31,046 nt of DNA from Nitrospinota bacterium (GTDB taxonomy: Bacteria; Nitrospinota; Nitrospinia; JACRGO01): positions 1-31,046 of the forward strand of contig JACRGO010000224.1 in assembly GCA_016212295.1 (NCBI GenBank), given 5' to 3'. Below are positions 10,817 through 31,046 of this stretch, one piece after another; the first letter of the stretch is position 1; each line of letters starts with the position of its first letter. The notes under the pieces were generated by a model. That model made no database searches. It was not told where the DNA came from and saw nothing but the letters and a program-made list of their open reading frames with translations. The position numbers were made by a program, and so were the translations under genes.

Positions 10817-11773
10817 TCAATGAAGATTTGGCGGTATTTCCACCATCATGGACTTGTCCATCTCCACGGCTCCCACCCTCTGGTTATAGGTTTCCAATAA
10901 AAGCCGGAATTCCCCGGAAAGTTTTTCCTGGGAAAATGTGGTCAATTCATCGATATTTTGTCCCACAAACAATTCAATGGACTGGATGGCTATTTTTTCC
11001 GAAACCCCTGAATCGGATAGCATTTGCTTGGCCGCCTCCATTTTTTCATAAGGAACCAACAGGTACACCCTAAAGCCTTCCTCTATATTTTTCTTGCACT
11101 TTTCACAAACTCCCAACATGGGGGACACCGTAACATGAAAAACCGTATTTCCAATGAGAAAATCACCCTGCCGATTCAATTGTTGATCAGCGGTGCTGAA
11201 AGATTCGTTGCCTATCTCCAGAGTTGGGAAGCGTATGGCAAGTTTCGCGCCCACCAAATATTGGGCCACGGGGCCGTGCTTTCCATTTTCCTTGGCTAAA
11301 TTAAGAAGATCGCTAATAGATTGGGACGTATTTTTGGAAGGTTCATATATTATTTTTAGTCTTTGGATATTATGGAACTCCCGGACCTTGTTAACCAAAA
11401 ATTCCTGAAAGTCTTCTAAAACAGCGGTTCTTTTTTCCAGGCTTACTTTATTCAAGTTCAAACCTTTTATGGCCATCAACATTCCGTTGATGTCTCCCCT
11501 CAAGCCACGATTGGTTCTTCCTCCTTCACTGACAAATCGTCTCGTCTCTCCAAATTTTCCCAATATCCTTTTGACCGAAGCGCCGCTGGCCCCTATAATT
11601 TGGGCGCCTCCCTTGGCCGTGTGCGCGTCAATATCCAAATTGAAGTCCTTTTCTAATCTTTCAAGAACAACCAAAGCCCCGCTTATAGTGCCTTTGGATT
11701 GAAAACCCCCAAATTTCCTGAGTGACTGAAACCATTCCTTGAATGCCTCGATGGACTTATTTTCTTGTGGCAT
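10817..11773 (-). CDS. DUF4928-like protein, putative restriction endonuclease partner
   Basis: This 318-residue soluble protein is the downstream partner of the Vsr-methyltransferase fusion. Its ATG (preceded by CCGGAG) overlaps the end of that gene by 17 bases, so the two are translationally coupled. It resembles the DUF4928 family, which I recall as a recurrent neighbour of cytosine-C5 methyltransferases; that memory and the tight coupling are the basis for suggesting a nuclease or restriction role. Visible features are a basic N-terminal half with SEGGRTNRGLRGDINGM and a CEKCKKN pair near residues 210-220 that could be half of a metal site. TADQQLNRQGDFLIGNTVFHVTVSPM (about 180-205) has the D...(I/V)xV spacing of a PD-(D/E)XK-like core, but I cannot fix catalytic residues. 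A specificity or control protein is an alternative. Confidence 0.55.
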   Translation of the reverse strand: MPQENKSIEAFKEWFQSLRKFGGFQSKGTISGALVVLERLEKDFNLDIDAHTAKGGAQIIGASGASVKRILGKFGETRRFVSEGGRTNRGLRGDINGMLMAIKGLNLNKVSLEKRTAVLEDFQEFLVNKVREFHNIQRLKIIYEPSKNTSQSISDLLNLAKENGKHGPVAQYLVGAKLAIRFPTLEIGNESFSTADQQLNRQGDFLIGNTVFHVTVSPMLGVCEKCKKNIEEGFRVYLLVPYEKMEAAKQMLSDSGVSEKIAIQSIELFVGQNIDELTTFSQEKLSGEFRLLLETYNQRVGAVEMDKSMMVEIPPNLH

Positions 11774-13385
11774 GTTGTACTCCGGAATTATTTAAAATCA
11801 GCGGACTTGAATGGATTAATTCATTAACCAAAGGATTTAAATAGTACTTGGCGATCCATTCAATAACCGGCACGCATACGGCGTCACCAAAGCCGAATAA
11901 AGCCTGATTTAAAGGGACAGAAAAATTGTAATCGCCCACTCCCATTAATCTAGCGGCCTCCCTGGGGGTCATGAGCCTCACAAAAAACTTCCCTTTCCCG
12001 GCCTTAAAAAGAATCTGCCTTGCGCTGCCGCCTTTTGGAGTTCGAAGACATCCCGCGATTCCATCCGTCCGCAATTCCGCCATGGATTTCCCGTTTCGCA
12101 TCCTTCTGAAGACGGTTCCATAAGACCAATTTGGAAAAGAGATCATTTGCTCCGCCTTGTTCCGGTGGCGCTGACTCATTTGATTCAGTAGATAGTTTGC
12201 CCTTCTTTCATTCCACCATTCGGGAGAAGCTACGGGAATATCTTCAAGAATCGACTCAAGCCTTTGGTAATTTTGGGGCAAGGAAGGCAATTTTCTGATG
12301 TTCCATTTAATTTCCGGGTGATTTTTAATGAACTTGATTAATGCATGCGGCCGGATGTCATCTTCCGTGACTTTGCTCAAATCTTTTTTCAAATTGAAGT
12401 TGCCAAACTCCCCAAGCTGGGCCACAACAAAAAAGCGCTGTCGGCTTTGAGGCACAAAGTTGGAAGCGTCTATGATAAAGGCGTCCACCTCATACCCTAA
12501 CCGGTTTAAGGCCAATAACGCTTGCGTTAAATCATCGCCGCCGTGGGAAGTCAGAAAACCAACAACGTTTTCCAGCATGACCAAAGGGGGCCTCCGGCTC
12601 CCCTTTTTTTCCAGTATACTGATAAACCCCCAAAAAGCGGACGAGTGTTTTCCTTTCAGTCCTTTTCGGGCGCCGGCAAGAGAGAGGTCCGTGCATGGGA
12701 AAGAAGCCGTGGCCAGAGAAACTGATGGGATAAGTTCCGGCGGTAACTGATGGATGTCCTCGCAAATGTAAGGGGTATGGTCGTTATGGAAATTCTGCTG
12801 ATATATCTCGAATTTTTGTTGGTCAATATCATTGGCGAAGGCGCTGGTCCATCCCTGCTTTTCCAGGCCGATGCGGAAGAGTCCGATGCCCGCGAAAAAG
12901 TCGGCAAACGTCATTCGCGGCAACAGGGAAATCGGGTTAAATTCCTTGCCATTTTTTATTGTCTCTAAAGTCACAGAGATGCATTTTTCAAGGTCCCGTT
13001 TAATTTCATCCTCCCAAAAGCGTATGACTGTCCATCCGTGGTCAAGCAAAACACTGGTATTTGTGCAGTCACGCCGGGCGTTCCCTCTGATTTTTTGAAT
13101 CCAGTAATCCTGGTGTGGATTTTTTGGGAACTGCTCTTCAAGACATGAAAGATTTCTTTTTTTCCATTGACCATCGTGCCAGAAATTCCCGTCTATAAAT
13201 ATGGCGATACGATGGGACGTTAATGCCACGTCCGGCTTGCCGGGAAGATTGGATGGTGAAGTCTTATACCGAACACCCTTTGCCCATAGAGCCTTTCGGA
13301 AAAGCATTTCAGGGGTGGTGTCGTCGGAGTGGACCTTGCGCATTCTCGATGAAGTCGCGGGCGTCGTGTTAGGGAAGATTTCCAT
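11757..13385 (-). CDS. Vsr-type nuclease fused to DNA cytosine-C5 methyltransferase
   Basis: This is a two-domain protein of 542 residues. Residues 14-135 match very-short-patch repair endonucleases: SSRMRKVHSDDTTPE, LPGKPDVAL with the catalytic-type D52, FIDGNFWH with H70, KIRGNARRD, and GWTVIRFWED. The Vsr zinc ligands (C66, H71, C73, C117 in E. coli) are N67, G72, W74 and D126 here, so no zinc site is expected. Residues about 158-525 are a C5 methyltransferase: motif I FADFFAGIGLFRIGLE, motif IV SFPCTDLS with nucleophile C231, motif VI ENV (272-274), motif VIII QSRQR (313-317), a target-recognition region (about 370-450), and motif X with FGFGDAVCVPV. It would methylate cytosine in DNA and perhaps process the T:G mismatches caused by deamination of its product. 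A TATAAT on the minus strand (13419-13414) suits a short leader. Vsr is usually a separate gene. Confidence 0.88.
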   Translation of the reverse strand: MEIFPNTTPATSSRMRKVHSDDTTPEMLFRKALWAKGVRYKTSPSNLPGKPDVALTSHRIAIFIDGNFWHDGQWKKRNLSCLEEQFPKNPHQDYWIQKIRGNARRDCTNTSVLLDHGWTVIRFWEDEIKRDLEKCISVTLETIKNGKEFNPISLLPRMTFADFFAGIGLFRIGLEKQGWTSAFANDIDQQKFEIYQQNFHNDHTPYICEDIHQLPPELIPSVSLATASFPCTDLSLAGARKGLKGKHSSAFWGFISILEKKGSRRPPLVMLENVVGFLTSHGGDDLTQALLALNRLGYEVDAFIIDASNFVPQSRQRFFVVAQLGEFGNFNLKKDLSKVTEDDIRPHALIKFIKNHPEIKWNIRKLPSLPQNYQRLESILEDIPVASPEWWNERRANYLLNQMSQRHRNKAEQMISFPNWSYGTVFRRMRNGKSMAELRTDGIAGCLRTPKGGSARQILFKAGKGKFFVRLMTPREAARLMGVGDYNFSVPLNQALFGFGDAVCVPVIEWIAKYYLNPLVNELIHSSPLILNNSGVQHATRK

Positions 13386-13559: not shown

Positions 13560-16331
13560 TCAGGGAATTTTCTTTTTCTCGAACAGGCGGATGAGAACCG
13601 GGAGCACTGTGCAGGAGGCAAGGAGCACGCTGCCGATCCCCAGGGTCAACAGGAGGCCGATGCTGAAAATCCCGTAATGCCTGGACACCATGAGGCTCCC
13701 GAAGCCGATCATGTTGTTGAAGGAGCAGAGAAACAAGGCCTTGCCCGTGCTGAGAAAAATTATGGATACCGGATCATCAACGTCCCCCTCGTGATAGCGC
13801 TCCACTATGTGGATTCCGTTATCAATCCCGATCCCGGTAATAAGCGGAAGTATGACAAGGTTCGCGAGATTGAAACGGAGATCGAAGACCTCCATCAAAC
13901 CGATAAGCCAGATGAAGCCGACGGAAAACGGGACCATCGACAAAAGAGCGTCCTTGGGTTTGCTGAAGGACAGGAAGGTGATCAGCACAATGGCTATAAA
14001 GGCATAAACCCCTCCCTGGACGTACCCGTCCTTCATCCGCGCCGCCGATTCGGACGACTGCACCGCCAGGCCGGTGACGTCAGGGTCCAGGGTCCGCAGG
14101 TCCGCTATGAACCTGTCCAGGGGCTCCTTGTCCCAAATGAATTCCCTGGGAAAGATCTGCAGAAGATATTTTCCGGTCTTTCCTATGAACCTGTCCTTGA
14201 TAGGCTTGGGAAGTTCCTCCAGTTCGATGGGGCTGGGGTCCATGCTCTTTTCCAAGGTGGAAAACTTGTCCTCGTAATCCACGAATAACCGTTTCTGGTA
14301 AGCGGCAAGAAGGGGAGCGGCCCCTGCGCCAAGGCCTTCCAGTTTGGCCGTTACCTCCTCCATCAGCATCTTGGCCTCCCTGATTGAGCCCTCTTCAGGC
14401 TTTTGGCCTGGGGCCCATGTCCCTCCCTCCTCCCGTAGCTTGAAGCTTATCTTCTTGAGCGTCTTTTTAAGATCATCCGTGTTTACCTCATTCAACTCGC
14501 CCCGCGCCGGAGGGGGGAAACTTGGGATGGAACCCCTCTCGGCCCTCACCAGTTGTATCTTTTCCTCCTGGCCTTCTGGATAGACGGAAAAAACGCTTTC
14601 TATGTCTCCCACTGTGGAAAGCTTCTCCAATTCCTTTTTCAGGCCTCTCGCCTGGTCAATGGAATCGGCGGTTATGGCCCCGTACCATGTGGAGCGTTCG
14701 GCGTTGTTGATTATTTCCTGCTCGAACCTTACTGATTCAGTTCCCTTGTTCTGCAATCTGAGGAGATTGAAATCGAATTTCACTTTGTTTATTAAAAGCC
14801 CGGAATACGCGGCCCAAAGGCCGCCTGCCACTAGGACCGCCACGGGAAACCTAAGCAAAAACTTTAGAAAATCAAGGTGAAGGGTAACGTCCGGGCGATC
14901 GAATACATTAAACAGCCCTTCCCTGACATGCTTGCGGTCCACCGCCACCAGCATGGCCGGCAAAAAGGTGAGCATGGCTGCCAGGCACAGCAAGACCCCG
15001 CTTCCGGCGATGATCCCCAGCTCCACTATCCCTCTGAAATCCGCGAAAACCATGGTGTAAAAGGACAGGGCCATGGTGAGGGCGCCAACCAATATCCCCT
15101 TGCCCGTGCCGCGGATGGCCGCCTCCAGCGCGACCTCGATGGAGGACGACTTCTTCAGCCTCTCCTCTTCGTAGCGCATGAGAATATGGACGCCGTAATC
15201 TATGCCGAGGCCGATCAAAATGCTGAGGAAGACGGCTGAAATAAGATTCAAATGCCCGATGAACAGTGTGGTCAGTCCCAAGGTCCAGCAGATGGAGGCC
15301 ACAAGGGCGATTGTGGCCAGAAGGGGTTTCACTATGCCTCGAAAGGCGAAGATGAAGGCCAGGGTCACCCCTATCAGGGAAATGATGGTTGCCTTGGTGT
15401 TGTCGCTTTGAGAGTCCACCGTTTCATCTGTCTCCAGGGCCGCAACCCCGGTCACCCCGGCTTCTATATCCGGAAAGTCCGCGCGGAGCGCGGCTATGCG
15501 GTCCCTGAGTATATAGAGAGGCTCCTTTGCCGAGGTAAAACTGCCCTTCTTTTTCACGGGGTTCACGGTCATCATGAATATTTTTTTGTTCTCGGAAGAA
15601 AAATAACCGTCCTTTTCCGCGGCCTCTTCCTGCTTGTTAAGAAATCCAGTCCAAGGGGATTTATAGTTTTTATTCCCATCCAGCCGTTCCTTCATCTGAC
15701 GCAGGAGATTATTCAGCAGGCTGAGGTCCGCGGGCGAGGATTTCTCCTCCCCTTCCTCCTTGCCGCTGTCCATCAAGCCGGAGACAAGATGCCCCACCAT
15801 GGCCTCGCTGATCTTGAAATTGATCTGGCGGAAGAGGTTTTCCAGGCCAGGCTCCTCGTTCAACCTGGAGATCATGTCCTCGTTCTCCTTTAACTTCCCG
15901 AACAGGTCCTTGATTTCCTTTTCCTTGAGAAAGAGGAAGAGCTTGTCCTTGAAGTAGCCGGTGTCGATCTTATAAAAGATGTCCATGAAATGGGCGGGGT
16001 CCGTCTGTATTTCAGCGCCGAGGACATCCATGTATTCCTTCAGGCGGTCCGGATCTTCTCCCTTCGCGACCACGATCAATCCGTCGTAGTTGCCGAACTC
16101 CTCCCGGTATTTCTTGAAATTCTGGTTGTACCGGAGGTCCTGGGACACCAACTCGTTCCTCCCGGTCTGAAACGTCAGATTCTTATAGGTATAAACCACG
16201 GAAATAATGGAGAGGAGGACGCAGAAGACAATGATCTTGACTGGATGTCTCTCAACCATCCTCGCCAGGCATAGGAGGAGCTTGTCGCGGACGCCGAGCT
16301 TATTTCTGGTTGGACCGGGAAAAGTTTTCAT
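13560..16331 (-). CDS. HpnN/MMPL-like RND superfamily exporter (HAE-3 type)
   Basis: This is a large inner-membrane transporter of 923 residues built from two MMPL-type halves. Each half is one helix, an extracytoplasmic domain and a five-to-six-helix bundle. The first bundle (about 320-480) reads FRGIVKPLLATIAL, GHLNLISAVFLSILIGLGID, YGVHILMRYEEERL, and the second (about 755-915) reads FSVGFIWLIGLM, FNLANLVILPLITGIGIDNG, IHIVERYHEGD. These phrases closely resemble HpnN, the RND protein that moves hopanoids to the outer membrane. At 923 residues it is slightly longer than typical HpnN (about 860-880), the excess lying in a charged, helical first periplasmic domain (about 100-300). No hopanoid synthesis gene is in the window, so the cargo could be another hydrophobic lipid. 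No Shine-Dalgarno sequence precedes the ATG; a later start is possible. Confidence 0.8.
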   Translation of the reverse strand: MKTFPGPTRNKLGVRDKLLLCLARMVERHPVKIIVFCVLLSIISVVYTYKNLTFQTGRNELVSQDLRYNQNFKKYREEFGNYDGLIVVAKGEDPDRLKEYMDVLGAEIQTDPAHFMDIFYKIDTGYFKDKLFLFLKEKEIKDLFGKLKENEDMISRLNEEPGLENLFRQINFKISEAMVGHLVSGLMDSGKEEGEEKSSPADLSLLNNLLRQMKERLDGNKNYKSPWTGFLNKQEEAAEKDGYFSSENKKIFMMTVNPVKKKGSFTSAKEPLYILRDRIAALRADFPDIEAGVTGVAALETDETVDSQSDNTKATIISLIGVTLAFIFAFRGIVKPLLATIALVASICWTLGLTTLFIGHLNLISAVFLSILIGLGIDYGVHILMRYEEERLKKSSSIEVALEAAIRGTGKGILVGALTMALSFYTMVFADFRGIVELGIIAGSGVLLCLAAMLTFLPAMLVAVDRKHVREGLFNVFDRPDVTLHLDFLKFLLRFPVAVLVAGGLWAAYSGLLINKVKFDFNLLRLQNKGTESVRFEQEIINNAERSTWYGAITADSIDQARGLKKELEKLSTVGDIESVFSVYPEGQEEKIQLVRAERGSIPSFPPPARGELNEVNTDDLKKTLKKISFKLREEGGTWAPGQKPEEGSIREAKMLMEEVTAKLEGLGAGAAPLLAAYQKRLFVDYEDKFSTLEKSMDPSPIELEELPKPIKDRFIGKTGKYLLQIFPREFIWDKEPLDRFIADLRTLDPDVTGLAVQSSESAARMKDGYVQGGVYAFIAIVLITFLSFSKPKDALLSMVPFSVGFIWLIGLMEVFDLRFNLANLVILPLITGIGIDNGIHIVERYHEGDVDDPVSIIFLSTGKALFLCSFNNMIGFGSLMVSRHYGIFSIGLLLTLGIGSVLLASCTVLPVLIRLFEKKKIP

Positions 16332-22994: not shown

Positions 22995-24374
22995 CTAAAA
23001 CGAATATCCGTCGCCTAAGGGCCTTTTCGGGCCTTTGCCCTGGTGAAGCAGACGGTAGGTTTTGTCCCACAAAGCCTCTTCGATGCTGAGTTCTCCAAGC
23101 TTGAGAAGAAGCAGGTAGTCCTCCCTCGGCAGAATCTCGATAAGCTCCTTAAGCTCAAAGGTCTTGAGCACGGCGTTTATGCAGGTTTTCAGATCGGATT
23201 CGGTTATTTTGAGCGTGAACATTTTTTCACAGATTATCGGGTCCACGTGGACGGAAGAGTCCTGGTTGAAAAGCTTGACGAATTTGTCCAATTGCGCGGC
23301 GGTGCCATTGGCGAGGAAATGGCTGGCTAACTGGTTCAGGACGGTTTGGTATTGATCATAAACCGGCAGGGAGACCAGGTTCTCCAGGCTGGACCGGTCC
23401 AGTTTGTTTTCATTTATATTTTGTATCAGATTTTTGGCATATCCTTTGTAATTGTCCAGTATAAATCCCATGCCCCAGCCGCAAGGCGTGCACCAGGAGC
23501 CCGCGTCGCCTATGAAGGCCACATTGTCGCGGGCCACCCTCATGGTAAGGCCGCCGGACGGATACCATCCATATCTCCAATCCTTGTCCGTGATTTCAAG
23601 ATCATGGAACGGTTCCGTGTCTTTTTCCTCGCGTATGACGCGCAGGTAAACTTCCTTCATGAAATCCACATCCACCATCTCCCTTGTTAGCCACAGGACC
23701 AGGGAAAGAGAGGTGTTTTCGTCATAAATCTCGTATTCAAAAACCGGCCTGCCGCTGCGCAGGGAAGCGTTTTTATCCAGATTGGTGTCCTCGAAAGTTT
23801 GCCACAGCATGTAGTCGCCGACCTCCATGGGTTTCTTGATGCCTCCCGGATGCTTGGCCACCGCCCCAAAAACAGACCACCAGTAATAGGAGTTGTGGGT
23901 GATTTCATATTTGGCGAGGATGGGGGAGTTCCAGCCCGAGGCGTCGATAAGAAGCCGGGCCTCGGCGGTCCCCTTGGAGGTCTTCAGGACCACCTTGCCG
24001 TTTGCGGCCAAGTGGTCTTCATAAAAGCACCGGCTGACGATTTTGGAGCCGTTTTTTTCAATAATGTTTTTCCAATAACCAAGTATTTCCGGCTTGACAT
24101 ACGGATAGCGATCGAAGAGTTCTGTTTTCCATCGGGCCTTGGCCCCGGAATAGGTTTGCGCCATGAAGCGCGTGACGCCTCCAAAGGTGTAGGGCTCGAC
24201 ATCAGGGTTTTTCTCCACCAGATCCTTGGGTATGAACCACGCCTTTATGGTGGCGGGCGGTTCGCCTTTATCAATCACCAGCACCTTAAGTTTTTTACTA
24301 AGCTCAGAGCCCACGGCCAAACCGGCGGGACCTCCGCCTACGATAGCGACGTCGTAATTGCCTTGTACGCTCAT
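22995..24374 (-). CDS. FAD-dependent oxidoreductase, lycopene-cyclase-like
   Basis: This flavoprotein of 459 residues has an N-terminal Rossmann motif YDVAIVGGGPAGLAVGSEL (about 8-26) and the second FAD motif IGDAGSWCTPCGWGMGF (GDAG at 289-292). The overall pattern resembles the lycopene cyclase/geranylgeranyl reductase group of flavoproteins. GDYMLWQTF, VFEYEIYD and YGWYPSGG suggest the CrtL/CruA side of that group, which cyclises lycopene ends without net redox. The C-terminal 100 residues (LVSLPVYDQYQTVLNQ onward) are helical and unassigned. AAAGGAACATC precedes the ATG. It follows the membrane protein gene by 13 bases and is in operon with it. A geranylgeranyl reductase role is the main alternative. 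Confidence 0.7.
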   Translation of the reverse strand: MSVQGNYDVAIVGGGPAGLAVGSELSKKLKVLVIDKGEPPATIKAWFIPKDLVEKNPDVEPYTFGGVTRFMAQTYSGAKARWKTELFDRYPYVKPEILGYWKNIIEKNGSKIVSRCFYEDHLAANGKVVLKTSKGTAEARLLIDASGWNSPILAKYEITHNSYYWWSVFGAVAKHPGGIKKPMEVGDYMLWQTFEDTNLDKNASLRSGRPVFEYEIYDENTSLSLVLWLTREMVDVDFMKEVYLRVIREEKDTEPFHDLEITDKDWRYGWYPSGGLTMRVARDNVAFIGDAGSWCTPCGWGMGFILDNYKGYAKNLIQNINENKLDRSSLENLVSLPVYDQYQTVLNQLASHFLANGTAAQLDKFVKLFNQDSSVHVDPIICEKMFTLKITESDLKTCINAVLKTFELKELIEILPREDYLLLLKLGELSIEEALWDKTYRLLHQGKGPKRPLGDGYSF

Positions 24375-24387
24375 GATGTTCCTTTCT

Positions 24388-25107
24388 TTATCCTTGAAAA
24401 ATCATGTAGGAGACATAATAAAACAGCCAGATCCCAAGGCCCATTATAATTCCGGCTGGTATGGAGACAGGGTGTTTTGCGTTGCTCAGCCTTAAAAAAA
24501 TATAGGTTAATGAAGGCACGAACAGCGCCTCGCCGGTGACAATAAACAAAGGCGCGTCGTAAATCATTATCAGGTCCTTGCCCTGGTAATACCAACAACC
24601 CGCTCCCTTTGCCAGGCCCTCCCAAAATATCCCCAGGCAAAGGCCAACCACGGACTGCGCAAGGAGGATCCTAAAAAGGCCGAATTTTTTTATAAAGGCC
24701 CAGCCGATGTAGGCCACGCATATGGGTGTGGCGGCCCACAATAACGGCATATAGGAAGGAGAAACCCAAATATGCGGCTCATCTTTGGGATAAAACAGGA
24801 CTTGCAGCGTGGAAACCAGCCAGTGGTCCGCGAATAGTTCCACGAATCCCATGACGGTGGTGCACAATAAAAATTTTGAAAGGAGATAATCCCTGGTAAG
24901 GATAATGAACAGGATTTGGCAGAAATATATGAAAAAGACCCAGGTAGAAAAAACTTTCCATCCCAAATTAAACCGCCAGTCCACGGCGGTAACCAGTCCG
25001 GATAAACTAATGATAATAAATAGGAACAGGAAGGTGTTTTTACGAAAACCTTCCACTTCTTTTTCAAGGCTGTTTATAACCCAGCGGCGCCAAAATATTT
25101 CAACCAT
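24388..25107 (-). CDS. multi-spanning membrane protein of the carotenoid-type cluster
   Basis: This protein has 239 residues and about seven hydrophobic helices; I do not recognise it with confidence. Two segments look related to each other and to CruF/CrtYcd-type proteins: GFVELFADHWLV...SPSYMPLLWA (about 95-135) and IFWEGLAKGAGCWYY...APLFIVTGEALF (about 160-200, W162-E163). Each has an acidic residue in a helix, an aromatic pair, then Pro and a second polar position. That pattern and the operon with a lycopene-cyclase-like flavoprotein suggest an isoprenoid-modifying or binding membrane protein, perhaps a divergent half-cyclase. GGAGG lies ten bases before the ATG. A possible group II intron remnant ends just upstream. 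Confidence 0.65.
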   Translation of the reverse strand: MVEIFWRRWVINSLEKEVEGFRKNTFLFLFIIISLSGLVTAVDWRFNLGWKVFSTWVFFIYFCQILFIILTRDYLLSKFLLCTTVMGFVELFADHWLVSTLQVLFYPKDEPHIWVSPSYMPLLWAATPICVAYIGWAFIKKFGLFRILLAQSVVGLCLGIFWEGLAKGAGCWYYQGKDLIMIYDAPLFIVTGEALFVPSLTYIFLRLSNAKHPVSIPAGIIMGLGIWLFYYVSYMIFQG

Positions 25108-25633: not shown

Positions 25634-27622
25634 TTATTGCTGAAGCGGCATGCGCGCCTTTTGTTTTATGTCAATTGTTCCTTCAACCTCACGGCAGTAA
25701 CCGTTAAGTTCCACGTATGCCTTGCCGTTCGCATCTCCCGCCACGCTACCGGCCCCTTCCCAATACTCCGGACCTGCCCAAAAGTGATGTTGCGCCCTCA
25801 GTTCCTGGTCCACCACCAAGGGTTCAACTTTAAGTTTCAAATCTCCTATGGTGACATTCCATCCCATGGGATAGGTACATCCGGTATGGGGACTCTTCCA
25901 TTCGCCCAGTTTCTCCACTTTGTAGTCATTGGGACCTAAATCGCGGGTCTGGTTGCCGGGACCAGTGATGGAGCCGTATCTTTCCACGTCCGCGTATTTT
26001 CCACGGTAGTCGTAGAGCATGATCTCCCGTCCGTCCTCCAGTTCGATGGCAAACCATTGCCACCCTTTTACTATGGCCTGGTAAAGCTCGCCGTATTGGC
26101 GGTCATACCAGGCAGTTCCTTTCACCTTATACGCCTTGTCTCCGATTTTAAGAGTGCCGTTGGCCGCCATTTTTTCCCGCGAATAATAATAGGTGTTGCC
26201 GCCGTATGCAAAGGGATGGGCGTTTCCACCGTAATGAAGGACCGGGGCCTTTGTCGATTCCGCGGCCAGGTCCAGGACGTAACCATCCACTTCCGTATGG
26301 AGAGAGTCCTTGCCGTTTCCGCCTTTTGCTATAATCTGGTTTCCAGGGCCGGCTACGAGGTCAAATTGATTCGGGACCTCCTTGGGCAGGGAGAAATGGA
26401 CATACTCCTTAAAATGAAAACTATCGCCGGTCACATCGGTAACGGCTGTTTGCGCCAGTTGCGCGTCAAAGCCCTTGAAGGCAAAGAATACGATCTCAAA
26501 CCCGAAACGCCGGGGTTCTTCCGTTTCCACCGTTTCCAGGTGTCCGGTCCAGTACCACCATTGAATAGGCTCCTGCTTTAAAAAAGCGTCATCTTTAGGC
26601 AACTCCACTTGGCCGATGATTCCCTTTTCATGATGAAAAAGGAAAAACCACGCAAAAAATACCAGCAATGCCCAGGGCAGCCAGGATTTAAATTTGTTAT
26701 TTTCTTCTTTCTCCCCGGCCAATTTGAGAGGAAGGATTTTATTCAAATAGGGCCAGCAGAAGCCTAAAACACCAAGGATGACAAAGACCGGTATTACAAT
26801 TACCAATTCGGGAAATTTTTTGTATAAAGCAGTGGCGAAGAACGTAACCAAAATCCATGCGTAGGTATACAAAGGGACCGCCAATACCACGGGATCAGCA
26901 GAGTGGTTCTGTTGGAATTTCTGGATAAAAGGTATCGTTAACAGTGCAAAAAAACCAAAAAAGATTGCTACTATCAATGCTTCCGGGAGGGCTTCCGGGT
27001 TGAGTTGGGCCAGCCATTCATAGGCGTCCATTATAACTTTATCTGCAAAAAACGCGGGGACAGTTGCCAAAAAGGCCACCAGGAAATCCCTGAATAATCC
27101 CTTTCCCCCTGGAGGAAACCAACGAAATCCCAATACCTGCATAAAAGACAGACTGCTTATAACCACGAACCAGCCTACGTAGTTGTCCCATGGAATTCCA
27201 AACCATTGGCCGTAATGGGATTCCGTCCAGGTCCAGAAATTTAAAGCTACCGCCAGGGGGTCCATTATAAAATCCATGCTCACGGCCAGGAAGCCGCAAA
27301 GTACTGGGCGAAGCGCCCAGGGGGGGGCAAGCCACATAGCGGTCTGTGTAACCGCATAAAAAATCACCCCCCACCCTAGGGCGACTCCCAAAGGGACCGG
27401 GCCGGGGAGTTGAAAAATAAAATAATTATAATGATATTGTTGCGGGACGCTGGCAACGGCGGAATATTCCAGTACAAATCCATAAATCATGGCGGACGCC
27501 ATGATAAAGAGCGGATACCGTCCCTGTCTCCAGGCGTGGCGGAAACAAAGGACCGACAAAATAAAATTACCTATTTCTATAAACAGAAAAGGCAAGGAGT
27601 AGTCGGAGGTGGTGATATGCAT
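25634..27622 (-). CDS. CruF-like carotenoid hydratase fused to CrtC/AttH lipocalin-like domain
   Basis: This two-part protein has 662 residues. Residues about 5-250 match the CruF/DUF422 family of integral-membrane carotenoid hydratases: FILSVLCFRHAWRQGRYPLF, YGFVLEY, GPVPLGVALGWGV, the acidic motif D117...D121-P122 (MDFIMDPLAVALNFWTW) and GIPWDNYVGW. Further helices run to about 340. Residues about 350-655 are a soluble CrtC/AttH-type lipocalin-like domain beginning QWWYWTGHLET (354 onward), with FGFEIVFFAFKGF, GTAWYDRQYGE, WQWFAIELEDGREIMLYDYR and HFWAGPEYWEGAG. CruF and CrtC are unrelated families that both include 1,2-hydratases of carotenoid end groups, so the fusion may hydrate both ends or pair catalysis with substrate handling. 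AttH relatives with no carotenoid role make this tentative. It is divergent from the cyclase-like gene; the ribosome-binding site is weak. Confidence 0.78.
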   Translation of the reverse strand: MHITTSDYSLPFLFIEIGNFILSVLCFRHAWRQGRYPLFIMASAMIYGFVLEYSAVASVPQQYHYNYFIFQLPGPVPLGVALGWGVIFYAVTQTAMWLAPPWALRPVLCGFLAVSMDFIMDPLAVALNFWTWTESHYGQWFGIPWDNYVGWFVVISSLSFMQVLGFRWFPPGGKGLFRDFLVAFLATVPAFFADKVIMDAYEWLAQLNPEALPEALIVAIFFGFFALLTIPFIQKFQQNHSADPVVLAVPLYTYAWILVTFFATALYKKFPELVIVIPVFVILGVLGFCWPYLNKILPLKLAGEKEENNKFKSWLPWALLVFFAWFFLFHHEKGIIGQVELPKDDAFLKQEPIQWWYWTGHLETVETEEPRRFGFEIVFFAFKGFDAQLAQTAVTDVTGDSFHFKEYVHFSLPKEVPNQFDLVAGPGNQIIAKGGNGKDSLHTEVDGYVLDLAAESTKAPVLHYGGNAHPFAYGGNTYYYSREKMAANGTLKIGDKAYKVKGTAWYDRQYGELYQAIVKGWQWFAIELEDGREIMLYDYRGKYADVERYGSITGPGNQTRDLGPNDYKVEKLGEWKSPHTGCTYPMGWNVTIGDLKLKVEPLVVDQELRAQHHFWAGPEYWEGAGSVAGDANGKAYVELNGYCREVEGTIDIKQKARMPLQQ

Positions 27623-27698
27623 AATGTTTACTCACGGTTTAGGTTATGGTAATCTTTGGCATGGCGGATAAATGTTAAAGTTAACTGGAGGCCAAAGA
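27623..27698. promoter_or_regulatory. divergent promoter gap between the fusion and cyclase-like genes
   Basis: Only 76 bases separate the two divergent starts, so promoters for both must lie here or inside the genes, and coordinated control is likely. The plus-strand ribosome-binding site is TGGAGG, seven bases before the ATG at 27699. I see no clear operator. Confidence 0.4.
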
Positions 27699-28661
27699 AT
27701 GAAATTAACCCCCCAAAAAGATTTTAAAATCGTTTCCATGATGATAGGGATGCTCTTGTTTCCCTCTGTCCTGACCCTGCTCCGGGTGGAAAGGCCGGGA
27801 ACCCTTGTTCTTCCCGACAATCCCTCTCCCCTAGGATATACTTGGAGTCTCCTGCTCTTTATAGTTCCCATCGTGACGATCCTTGCATGGCTCCACCTGA
27901 ACCATGATAAAAAATTTTTAAAAAAATCCTTTTGGTTGACCATCGCAACTTTGGCGCCCATTGGCTTTCTTCTGGATATATTTTTAGGAAATCTTTTTTT
28001 TAACTTTCCCAACCACGAGGCAACGATTCAGTTTAATCTGCCCGGCTATGATTTGGAAACCCAAAAGTGGTTGTGGGACCTGCCCATTGAGGAGTTTATT
28101 TTTTATGGCTCAGGCTTTATGGCCATTCTTCTGCTTTATATCTGGTGCGACGAATTCTGGTTTGGGGCTTATAATTTGCCGGACTACCATGGCGAAACCA
28201 AGGCGTTGGAAAAAATAGTGGCTTTCCATCCCCGTTCCGCGATTTTAGGATTAACCTTAGTCGTATTGGGAATTATTTATAAAAAATTCTTTCAGCATCA
28301 ATATAATGAAGGATTTCCAGGTTATTTTATTTTTCTAACGCTTGTCAGCATTGTCCCCTCCTGCGCCTTTTTTAAAGCCACCTTTCGGTTCATCAATTGG
28401 AGGGCCTTTAGTTTCACCTTCTTTTTTCTTTTGCTGGTCAGCTTAATGTGGGAGGCTACTTTGGGTGTTCCTTATCAATGGTGGACCTATAATTATAGCC
28501 AGATGCTCGGAATAACCATTGGGGCCTGGGGCAATTTGCCCATCGAAGCCGCGCTGTTATGGATGGCCGTCACCTTCACAACGGTTATCATTTATGAGGT
28601 GATCAAAATCTGGCTCCACTCCGGAAGGAGAGCCAGGGAAGCCTTTTTTGGTAAAGGCTAA
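27699..28661 (+). CDS. CrtYc/CrtYd-type lycopene cyclase-like membrane protein
   Basis: This integral membrane protein of 320 residues has about eight helices and two cyclase-like halves. The ATG at 27699 is chosen because TGGAGG precedes it; an ATG at 27672 lacks a ribosome-binding site. The first half carries LWDLPIEEFIFYGSGF (P129-I-E-E) and the second carries LMWEATLGV, WWTYNY, GNLPIEAALLW (P281-I-E). This PxE(E) pattern marks the heterodimeric/fused CrtYc-CrtYd lycopene cyclases of actinobacteria, archaea and fungi. A middle stretch (about 150-200, HPRSAILGLTLV) joins the halves. In this neighbourhood a role in carotenoid ring formation or another prenyl cyclisation is likely. The second motif has lost the usual second Glu, so activity is uncertain. 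Confidence 0.7.
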   Translation: MKLTPQKDFKIVSMMIGMLLFPSVLTLLRVERPGTLVLPDNPSPLGYTWSLLLFIVPIVTILAWLHLNHDKKFLKKSFWLTIATLAPIGFLLDIFLGNLFFNFPNHEATIQFNLPGYDLETQKWLWDLPIEEFIFYGSGFMAILLLYIWCDEFWFGAYNLPDYHGETKALEKIVAFHPRSAILGLTLVVLGIIYKKFFQHQYNEGFPGYFIFLTLVSIVPSCAFFKATFRFINWRAFSFTFFFLLLVSLMWEATLGVPYQWWTYNYSQMLGITIGAWGNLPIEAALLWMAVTFTTVIIYEVIKIWLHSGRRAREAFFGKG

Positions 28662-28746: not shown

Positions 28747-30801
28747 CTAAAACCTCCACGTGACCTTTCCGTACACGCTCCGCTCCACCTCGGTAACCGG
28801 CACCCCTAGGGTGGAGTCCATGAACTCCGGATGGCTCGCATCCAATAAATTCCGTCCTACAAGGGAAAGTTCCAGGTCTTTCATGGGGCTCCATCCCAGG
28901 CGGACATCCATCTCAGTGTACCCGTCGATTTTGTATTCGGGAAGATTGTCAACGTACCGGAGAAAGGCGTCCAGTTCCAGATCAAAGGGAAGGTCCATGG
29001 AAGATCTCAGGGAAAATTGATTGTCCGGAGAAGATCCCTCGAACCTTTTAGGTCCCGGGTCCGTGCTGCCCCTTGGGTACAGTTGAATCTGGAGCCTTGT
29101 ATAAGAAGCCTGGAATCGCCACCATGACAGGGCGTGCCATTTTGCTGAAACCTCGGCGCCATAAGTTTCTCCTGACATTTTATCGTTGGCGGGAAACGCG
29201 GGAATGACCAAGTGGGACATCACCGCGTCTCCAGGATAGGGCGCGCCGGTTTCAAAGGTCAGAAGGTTGTCGTAATTATTGTAAAAGGCCGCGATATCGA
29301 GGGAAAGTTTGTCCATGGGCTGGACGCGGTAACCCAATTCATAGGCCAGGAGGTCTTCCGAGTTAAACCCCTTATTTCCGGTAATGGTATAAAGGGCCGT
29401 GGGAGAGCCTGGAAACAGGGCGTTCGCCGGAATCGGCGCGGCGTAAAGCGAGGCCAGATCTTGGTCCGCCCGGCTCGGTGTCCTGACGGCGCGGGACACT
29501 GATGCCCATAACGTGTGCCGCTCGTGCGGGGTCCAGAGAATCCGTCCACTGGGCTGCACCTCAAACTGGCTATAATCGTTGTCCTCGAATTTCGAGCCTA
29601 CAATAAACTTGAGCCTGTCCGGGACAATGGTGATTTCATCCTGAAGAAAAACATTGTATGTCTTCGCGCCACGAGACCCACGGGCATAGGAAATATTGTA
29701 GGAGTTGTCCATGTTATCGGATACGTAACGGAATCCTAGGCCCCAGGTTATTTCCTGCCTTCCGTCCGCCTGAAACCGGTGCTGAAAATCCACGTCATAG
29801 GTCCTGACCACTTGGCCGAATTTGTCCAGGAACCGGCTCTCGGAATCCGTGTGGTCGTAATACAACTGCAGAAACGAATCCGATGTGTCCGACCAGATAT
29901 GTTTCCATCGTCCCAATATATTCGCGCCCTTGTCCTTTGCGTTGACCTCCGTGGGGACCGAAAAGGGGGAAAAGGGGACTGTGACATTTTCCATGTCCCC
30001 GCTGGTGTTTTTATACAAATCTCCCTGAAGGGTAAAAGAATCATCCTCGTTGGCCTCCCAATCCACCTTGAATCCTCCCTGGACGTGGTCCCAATCGTCC
30101 TTGGCGTTTTCACCTGTGGTCCAATTGAAATTGTCCTTTTTGGAACCTTTCGCATAGGCCCTGTAATGCAGGTTGTCTCCCAACTCTCCTCCGTACCGGA
30201 GAGACCCGAACCCGGTCTCTTCCTTGCCGCCTCCGCCGGAGAGCAGCCCACCCTGGGTGTCCTTCGCGTTCTTAGTGATAATATTGATGATCCCGTTCAC
30301 AGCGTTTGCTCCCCAGAGCGTTGCTCCAGGCCCGCGTATGATTTCTATCCTTTCCACGTCTTCCAGCATCGTGTCCTGCTTGTGCCAGTAGACCCCGGAA
30401 AAAACCGGGGTGTAGAGCGTCCTGCCGTCCAAAAGCACAAGGAGCTTATTGGCGAAGCGAAGGTTGAATCCCCGGACCGATATGGCCCATGTGCTGGAAT
30501 TCAGTTGCGCAACCTGGAGACCGGGGACCATGCGCAAGGCGTCGGGAATGGTGTTAACCCCGGAGCGGCGGATGTCATCCTGGGTGATGACGAAGATGGC
30601 CGCGGCCGACTCCGATAGCTTGCTCTCCTTTTTTGAGACCGAGGTGACGGTGATGTCCATCAACTCCTCAAGGCTTAGTTCAGTGATATCGTTGCGCGCG
30701 AGCAGCATAGGTTCCGGTTTGGACGAGGCCCTGGCGGGAAGGGGGAAGAGCTGAAAAATAAAAAGGGCGGCGATAAAAATTCTAATTGCCAGGTTTTTCA
30801 T
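28747..30801 (-). CDS. TonB-dependent outer membrane receptor
   Basis: This energised outer-membrane transporter has 684 residues. The signal peptide (about 1-26, IFIAALFIFQLFPLPARAS) is followed by a TonB-box-like and linker region ELSLEELMDITVTSVSKKES. The plug domain (about 55-165) contains VITQDDIRRSGVNTIPDALR, MVPGLQVAQL, LLDGRTLYTPVFSGVYW, IEIIRGPGATLWGANAVNG and INIITK. A 22-strand-type barrel ends in GRNLLD...YGKVTWRF with the terminal Phe. Several strands resemble vitamin B12/siderophore receptors, but the ligand cannot be named and no ExbB/ExbD/TonB or siderophore gene is adjacent. AGGAGAATCTCC precedes the ATG, and a TATAAT lies on the minus strand at 30877-30872. It converges with the cyclase-like gene. 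Confidence 0.92.
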   Translation of the reverse strand: MKNLAIRIFIAALFIFQLFPLPARASSKPEPMLLARNDITELSLEELMDITVTSVSKKESKLSESAAAIFVITQDDIRRSGVNTIPDALRMVPGLQVAQLNSSTWAISVRGFNLRFANKLLVLLDGRTLYTPVFSGVYWHKQDTMLEDVERIEIIRGPGATLWGANAVNGIINIITKNAKDTQGGLLSGGGGKEETGFGSLRYGGELGDNLHYRAYAKGSKKDNFNWTTGENAKDDWDHVQGGFKVDWEANEDDSFTLQGDLYKNTSGDMENVTVPFSPFSVPTEVNAKDKGANILGRWKHIWSDTSDSFLQLYYDHTDSESRFLDKFGQVVRTYDVDFQHRFQADGRQEITWGLGFRYVSDNMDNSYNISYARGSRGAKTYNVFLQDEITIVPDRLKFIVGSKFEDNDYSQFEVQPSGRILWTPHERHTLWASVSRAVRTPSRADQDLASLYAAPIPANALFPGSPTALYTITGNKGFNSEDLLAYELGYRVQPMDKLSLDIAAFYNNYDNLLTFETGAPYPGDAVMSHLVIPAFPANDKMSGETYGAEVSAKWHALSWWRFQASYTRLQIQLYPRGSTDPGPKRFEGSSPDNQFSLRSSMDLPFDLELDAFLRYVDNLPEYKIDGYTEMDVRLGWSPMKDLELSLVGRNLLDASHPEFMDSTLGVPVTEVERSVYGKVTWRF

Positions 30802-31020: not shown

Positions 31021-31046
31021 CAGGCGATGTCTGGGAACATACCACG

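Follow-up and report, generated by a model that had tools for sequence, protein, structure and literature searches.

A membrane protein joining a PF04240 domain to an AttH-type lipocalin domain, encoded beside genes for TonB-dependent receptors

The locus and its fusion gene

The window, by which we mean the whole stretch of DNA analysed (31,046 nucleotides, contig JACRGO010000224.1 of assembly GCA_016212295.1, phylum Nitrospinota), carries towards its right-hand end a gene in which two protein families are joined. The features of the locus are the following.

22995..24374, minus strand: FAD-dependent oxidoreductase, geranylgeranyl-reductase/lycopene-cyclase-like at a low score, of uncertain relevance
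24388..25107, minus strand: neighbouring membrane protein of the DUF6989 family (PF22497)
25634..27622, minus strand: fusion gene, 662 aa; PF04240 membrane domain plus PF07143/PF17186 two-barrel lipocalin domain, kept as a full-length fusion in other genomes
25688..26617, minus strand: C-terminal domain, residues 336-645; AttH/kievitone-hydratase-like double lipocalin barrel, predicted periplasmic, from an AlphaFold2 (AF2) model and fold search
26054..26110, minus strand: motif W505-Y-D507-RQYG...G-W521-Q-W523, aligned with Y266/D268/W283/W285 of CrtC (WYDRQWG...NWTW in kievitone hydratase)
26618..27622, minus strand: membrane domain, residues 1-335; ten predicted transmembrane helices, PF04240-like, from an AF2 model (pLDDT 87), an alignment and a positive-inside count
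27179..27199, minus strand: GIPWDNY loop, residues 142-148, between helices 4 and 5, on the predicted periplasmic face
27672..28661, plus strand: divergent lycopene-cyclase-like neighbour, 329 aa, with PIEE and PIEA motifs; 24.6 bits to PF18916, just under the cut-off of 27
28747..30801, minus strand: TonB-dependent receptor, 684 aa, with counterparts in genomes G015 (51% identical) and G910 (42% identical)

The fusion gene is one unbroken frame of 662 codons, from ATG to stop, on the minus strand; the plus strand holds stops. An earlier note on this DNA had recognised the single fused frame, without giving its strand, and the motifs it named are all present at those residues (D117, D121-P122, G142-IPWDNYVGW and Q354-WWYWTGHL). 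Searched with hmmscan at the curated Pfam cut-offs, the protein matched PF04240 (Caroten_synth) at residues 21-170 (57.4 bits, cut-off 25, E 2.5e-15), PF07143 at residues 353-511 (87.9 bits, cut-off 22.5, E 1.6e-24) and PF17186 at residues 518-642 (114.2 bits, cut-off 26.2, E 6e-33). The profile check that the note had proposed thus returned all three families over their cut-offs, and its central observation, that two unrelated families of hydratase type share one protein, stands on these matches and on the recurrence of the fusion described below. For the architecture, sought as PF04240 with PF07143, as a fusion of CruF and CrtC, and as a receptor with a lipocalin and a 'carotenoid biosynthesis protein', no description was found in the open-licence literature. 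The component families are known, whereas their combination, the topology and the genomic setting appear to be new.

Recurrence and origin of the fusion

A search of other genomes for the same fusion, likewise proposed in the note, recovered it in full length from at least 12. Ten full-length single-frame relatives, 47-49% identical over residues 2-657, came from a scan of named genomes in the Zoogloeaceae/Rhodocyclaceae (Denitromonas, Azoarcus, Aromatoleum and Rhodocyclaceae MAGs), and a sample of 398 Pseudomonadota genomes added a further two, those of G458 and G466, which are full-length as well but less closely related. A sample of the Azoarcus family yielded further fusions, plus one genome (G910) that has the C-terminal domain alone, without PF04240. 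The same three Pfam domains are present in those other fusions that were scanned, and the position of the linker is kept across the full-length fusions of at least 12 independent genomes. This recurrence rules out a frameshift or assembly error as the origin of the frame, and leaves an artefact or a chance joining of two genes hardly credible, even though the PF04240 part stands as a gene of its own in two near relatives of the window genome, G001 (a congener) and G015.

G001 has the PF04240 gene and no match to the C-terminal domain, and G015 has a stand-alone gene for the C-terminal domain at the end of another contig. As G001 has the PF04240 part only and G910 the C-terminal domain only, neither half always depends on the other. 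In the trees, the membrane domain of the window protein is nearest to those of G001 and G015, and its C-terminal domain groups in a single starred clade with those of the remaining fusions and with the stand-alone ones of G015 and G910. A single origin of the fusion was neither rejected nor demonstrated by the tree tests (p-AU 0.226 and 0.445, one for each half). Judged from the sequences, the fusion may have arisen once and then been undone, or may have arisen twice, as both histories are compatible with the trees.

Genomic context

The surroundings of the fusion gene recur outside the window lineage. In all ten Zoogloeaceae/Rhodocyclaceae loci the genes follow each other with short gaps in the order TonB-dependent receptor, fusion, YfiR-like protein (DUF4154), hybrid histidine kinase and GGDEF response regulator. 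G466 and G458 have the receptor, the YfiR-like protein and the kinase in that order, with the fusion adjoining in the opposite orientation; the receptor frame of G458 is interrupted in the stored stretch. Outside the window lineage, every one of the 12 carriers therefore has the receptor, the YfiR-like protein and the hybrid kinase beside the fusion, with two gene orders among them. Moreover, the stand-alone C-terminal domain gene of G910 lies between a receptor gene and a kinase gene, and this receptor, directly upstream of it, is the counterpart that is 42% identical to that of the window. The counterpart in G015 (51% identical) belongs to the cluster that holds its stand-alone PF04240 gene.

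In the window itself the lycopene-cyclase-like gene and the receptor gene lie to the right of the fusion, and the contig ends at position 31046, beside the receptor. The lycopene-cyclase-like neighbour is retained in G001 and G015, whereas the nine remaining genomes tested lack it. The DUF6989 protein is probably not a member of the module: it was absent from all 11 other genomes tested, and G001 has other genes after its PF04240 gene. The same protein resembles, though weakly, the bacterial Insig model NF047899 (18.4 bits against a cut-off of 280), and the membrane domain of the fusion resembles, likewise weakly, the fold of an Insig homologue (MvINS, see below). Elsewhere in the window, positions 13560-16331 encode an HpnN/BstA-like RND transporter, of the type for hopanoids or sterols, whose score to HpnN (584 bits) stays under the cut-off. 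Another fusion, at positions 10817-13385, joins a Vsr/DUF559-like nuclease region and a C5 cytosine methyltransferase (542 aa); it adjoins a DUF4928 protein and resembles a restriction-modification unit.

The C-terminal domain

The C-terminal half is of the AttH/kievitone-hydratase type and is not a CrtC. Its closest solved relative is AttH NE1406 (PDB 2ich, E 6.6e-27), and the AF2 model of the domain (pLDDT 72) matched both this structure (Z 30.2) and the kievitone hydratase of Nectria haematococca (PDB 7a0q/7a0t; Z 26.6 for 7a0q, 286 residues, rmsd 3.3) over the whole domain. The model also matched a 25-phosphosteroid lyase (PDB 9g4c, 9fzn; Z 19.0, 270 residues, rmsd 3.8) and decalin-forming pericyclases (Z about 18). 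The likeness to AttH lies in the layout YYYS...WxD...WxW, of which the W-x-D...W-x-W part is common to most AttH-type proteins. AttH, however, is a stand-alone protein without an assigned function, whereas the fusion clade has a signature of its own (WxDRQYG[ED]L..AI..GWQW), particular to it within the set examined.

The likeness to kievitone hydratase comprises the double lipocalin fold and a core of WYDRQ[WY]G and WxW (HTWYDRQWG...NWTWF versus GTAWYDRQYG...GWQWF in the fusion). This enzyme is a proven prenyl hydratase, which hydrates a terminal prenyl double bond (PMC5805349). It differs in being a secreted fungal enzyme with 18% identity to the domain, without a membrane domain and without a linkage to a receptor. 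The 25-phosphosteroid lyase acts at a tertiary side-chain carbon and yields a subterminal alkene (PMC11061730); it resembles the domain in fold and differs in its low identity (14%), in the lack of a membrane domain and in its role, the elimination of phosphate in anaerobic sterol breakdown. These two enzymes of the fold share a site of action, a tertiary carbon in a prenyl or isoprenoid side chain (PMC5805349, PMC11061730).

A genuine CrtC, encoded on the photosynthesis plasmid of Roseobacter litoralis (NC_015741.1, L073:10801-11673), has H, W, Y, D, W and W spaced exactly as H239, W241, Y266, D268, W283 and W285 of the R. gelatinosus enzyme, with a different spacing around W110. H239, W241, Y266 and D268 of the latter are each essential, and D268, W283 and W285 are required for activity (PMC4717167, PMC12402844). 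The fusion is a distant homologue by position (about 13% identity) that keeps D268, W283 and W285 as D507, W521 and W523, whereas Y478, Y480 and W505 take the places of H239, W241 and Y266, so that one of the four essential residues is retained. The profile matches also differ. The Roseobacter CrtC scores 521 bits to NF045922 (cut-off 400), which by its name covers the rhodobacterial type only, and matches neither PF07143 nor any other Pfam family even at E 10; the fusion matches PF07143 and is not listed for NF045922 at E 0.1. As a real CrtC fails to match PF07143 and AttH-type proteins match it strongly (up to 194 bits), the name 'CrtC' given to this Pfam family does not identify a CrtC, and annotations as 'carotenoid 1,2-hydratase' that rest on PF07143 are unsafe.

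The N-terminal membrane domain

Modelled alone with AF2, the membrane domain gave ten transmembrane helices (pLDDT 87, pTM 0.86). In an alignment with diverse and distant PF04240 proteins, no variation was seen at E52, Y65, P77, D117, W130, P144, N147 or W151, and hardly any at D121 and P122. At E 0.001 a fold search with this domain alone returned nothing. The Insig homologue MvINS stands out weakly (Z 7.2, 137 of 335 residues, rmsd 3.0): it leads the next match by more than 2 Z units and is below the value of 8 taken as the level for a reliable match. The loops on one side of the membrane hold 107 Lys and Arg among 666 residues, against 43 among 1133 on the other side (nine fusions). This distribution predicts a position outside, in the periplasm, for the N-terminus, the GIPWDNY loop and the lipocalin alike. 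The periplasmic placement of the second domain, already suggested in the earlier note, is borne out as a prediction from this charge distribution.

With CruF, the gamma-carotene or bisanhydrobacterioruberin hydratase, the domain shares the Pfam family and the conserved acidic and W/N/P positions. The CruF equivalogs are its nearest NCBIfam models, but it remains far under the cut-off of each (34.3 versus 154.7, 30.2 versus 300 and 22.4 versus 400 bits), as do L025, L093 and L021. The fusion further differs from CruF in an additional C-terminal transmembrane helix, the lipocalin and the lack of a carotenoid cluster. The initial reading of the protein as CruF-like plus CrtC/AttH therefore holds for membership of PF04240 and for the AttH type, and fails for CruF proper and for CrtC.

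Other PF04240 genes have a different setting. Stand-alone genes in G010 and G043 adjoin a gene whose start resembles a nucleotide-sugar epimerase, as judged by eye only, so PF04240 alone is no proof of carotenoids. Of the stand-alone genes from the class of the window, those at L077:4324-5112 and L080:4140-4940 adjoin an epimerase-like gene, and the L077 protein scores 55-60 bits to the CruF models. The neighbourhood of epimerase-like genes is possibly a further non-carotenoid setting of the family.

Carotenoids and squalene as candidate substrates

The family names PF04240 and PF07143, the PxEE motif of the lycopene-cyclase-like neighbour and the CruF models as nearest relatives of the membrane half would all fit a carotenoid 1,2-hydratase fusion, in which a CruF half and a CrtC half act as hydratases on both ends of an acyclic carotenoid. 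The genomes speak against it. The known phytoene/squalene synthase family, PF00494, is absent from the window genome (90.5% complete), G001 (99% complete) and G015, where the controls did give matches, and no CrtI-family desaturase scored over the cut-off in nine genomes, including the window genome and six other fusion carriers. These absences go against the carotenoid function proposed in the earlier note, which had itself named a lack of carotenoid genes as a ground for refutation, and they led us to reject, for the window lineage, a home-made carotenoid as substrate. The Pseudomonadota carriers have two PF00494 copies each, which in the clusters inspected stand in tandem next to an amine-oxidase-type gene, presumably the HpnCDE layout of squalene genes. 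Taken together, these gaps and pairs make a carotenoid role unlikely, and with a C-terminal half outside CrtC and a receptor as context we regard this particular pathway enzyme as quite improbable.

The same gene pairs raise the question of squalene, an acyclic C30 isoprenoid with an end group identical to that of lycopene, whose ends, or those of a derivative, the fusion could hydrate. In favour of this are the two PF00494 copies of the Pseudomonadota carriers and the lack of a squalene-hopene cyclase over the cut-off in the tested carriers G149, G153, G458 and G466, and also in G910. The window genome and G001 do have a squalene-hopene cyclase of the DNDDT type. However, PF00494 is present in 94 of 101 genomes of the Azoarcus family, a base rate at which its co-occurrence with the fusion is uninformative, and with the known enzymes the window genome would be unable to produce squalene. 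We regard squalene as an unlikely substrate. The cyclase genes are full-length (G000:C152:5349-6302, where G000 is the window genome, in L112:5328-7391; and G001:C338, L113:3779-5845) and lie between lepA/lepB-like and infC/rplT-like genes; a gene of the squalene synthase family was found in neither genome. In Azoarcus sp. L1K30 (L114, G149:C1:1342000-1360000) the surroundings of the two PF00494 genes and an amine-oxidase-type (HpnE-like) gene include an FtsX/MacB permease gene and an AttH-type match (G149:C1:1347801-1348796), which hints at AttH-type lipocalins linked to squalene.

A proposed prenyl hydratase or lyase facing the periplasm

The fusion has receptor genes, and not carotenoid genes, as neighbours, and its probable substrate is therefore an isoprenoid lipid other than a carotenoid of the cell's own making. 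Our preferred reading, at a probability of roughly 45%, is that of a membrane-anchored prenyl hydratase or lyase facing the periplasm and acting on an isoprenoid lipid that is taken up or sensed with the TonB-dependent receptor. A shared first step, protonation of the terminal isopropylidene group of an isoprenoid, is generally assumed for lycopene cyclases, CruF, CrtC and kievitone hydratase. Relatives of three such protonating kinds beside a receptor suggest that the substrate has a terminal isopropylidene group.

From the sequence comparisons and models we infer the following course of catalysis, class of substrate and handover of lipid between the domains. The lipid would reach the inner membrane by way of the receptor, and the ten-helix PF04240 domain would bind it from the membrane via the conserved acids E52, D117 and D121. 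The two-barrel domain would lie directly over the membrane and take up the prenyl end in the space separating the barrels; D507 would be the proton donor, and W521/W523 would stabilise a tertiary carbocation, as proposed for CrtC. In this way the fusion would protonate and hydrate, or in reverse dehydrate, the terminal prenyl double bond. Hydration of both ends of a substrate, or channelling between the two domains, is possible. The protein would work with the receptor and, in most carriers, also with the YfiR-like/histidine-kinase sensory set, a partnership that makes an imported or sensed envelope compound a more likely substrate than a home-made carotenoid.

Several observations count against a prenyl hydratase. 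The fold family of the C-terminal domain also includes non-hydratases (the pericyclases, a lyase and AttH, which has no assigned function), the W-x-D...W-x-W motif is shared by most AttH-type proteins, and three residues essential in CrtC are Y, Y and W in the fusion. The halves also occur apart, in G001 and G910, and the membrane domain gave no clear fold match. The protein might instead be a lipid-binding relay or sensor: the receptor would import a lipophile, which the lipocalin and the membrane domain would bind, signalling to the YfiR-like protein and the kinase, or pass on. The strong linkage to the receptor, the YfiR-like protein and the hybrid kinase would suit such a role, as would the GGDEF response regulator of the Zoogloeaceae loci, the lipocalin fold and the resemblance of the membrane domain to MvINS, its closest fold, if only by a weak match. 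Nevertheless, both halves conserve acidic and aromatic residues of catalytic type, proven enzymes are among the close folds of the C-terminal domain, and the MvINS match is under the reliability level of the tool; we consider a relay or sensor a serious though rather doubtful alternative to the hydratase or lyase. A complete, hitherto undescribed envelope module can also be envisaged: an isoprenoid lipid would enter through the TonB-dependent receptor and be processed, on the periplasmic side of the membrane, by one membrane protein that combines two unrelated prenyl hydratase/lyase domains, both proton-driven, while the YfiR-like/histidine-kinase set would sense the ligand or the product. This full scheme is put forward as speculative and, as a whole, on the improbable side.

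Significance

The addition of water to an unactivated prenyl double bond is a hard reaction, and two putative, unrelated solutions to it share one polypeptide here, in bacteria that apparently have no carotenoid pathway. For the fusion, the labels 'carotenoid biosynthesis protein' and 'CrtC' are misleading. The fusion is a candidate for a cofactor-free enzyme of terpene hydration, and because receptor and sensor genes are conserved beside it, ordinary genetics in cultured Azoarcus, Denitromonas and Aromatoleum strains should be able to reveal the substrate. More generally, it suggests that the bacterial envelope hosts an isoprenoid transformation yet to be characterised.
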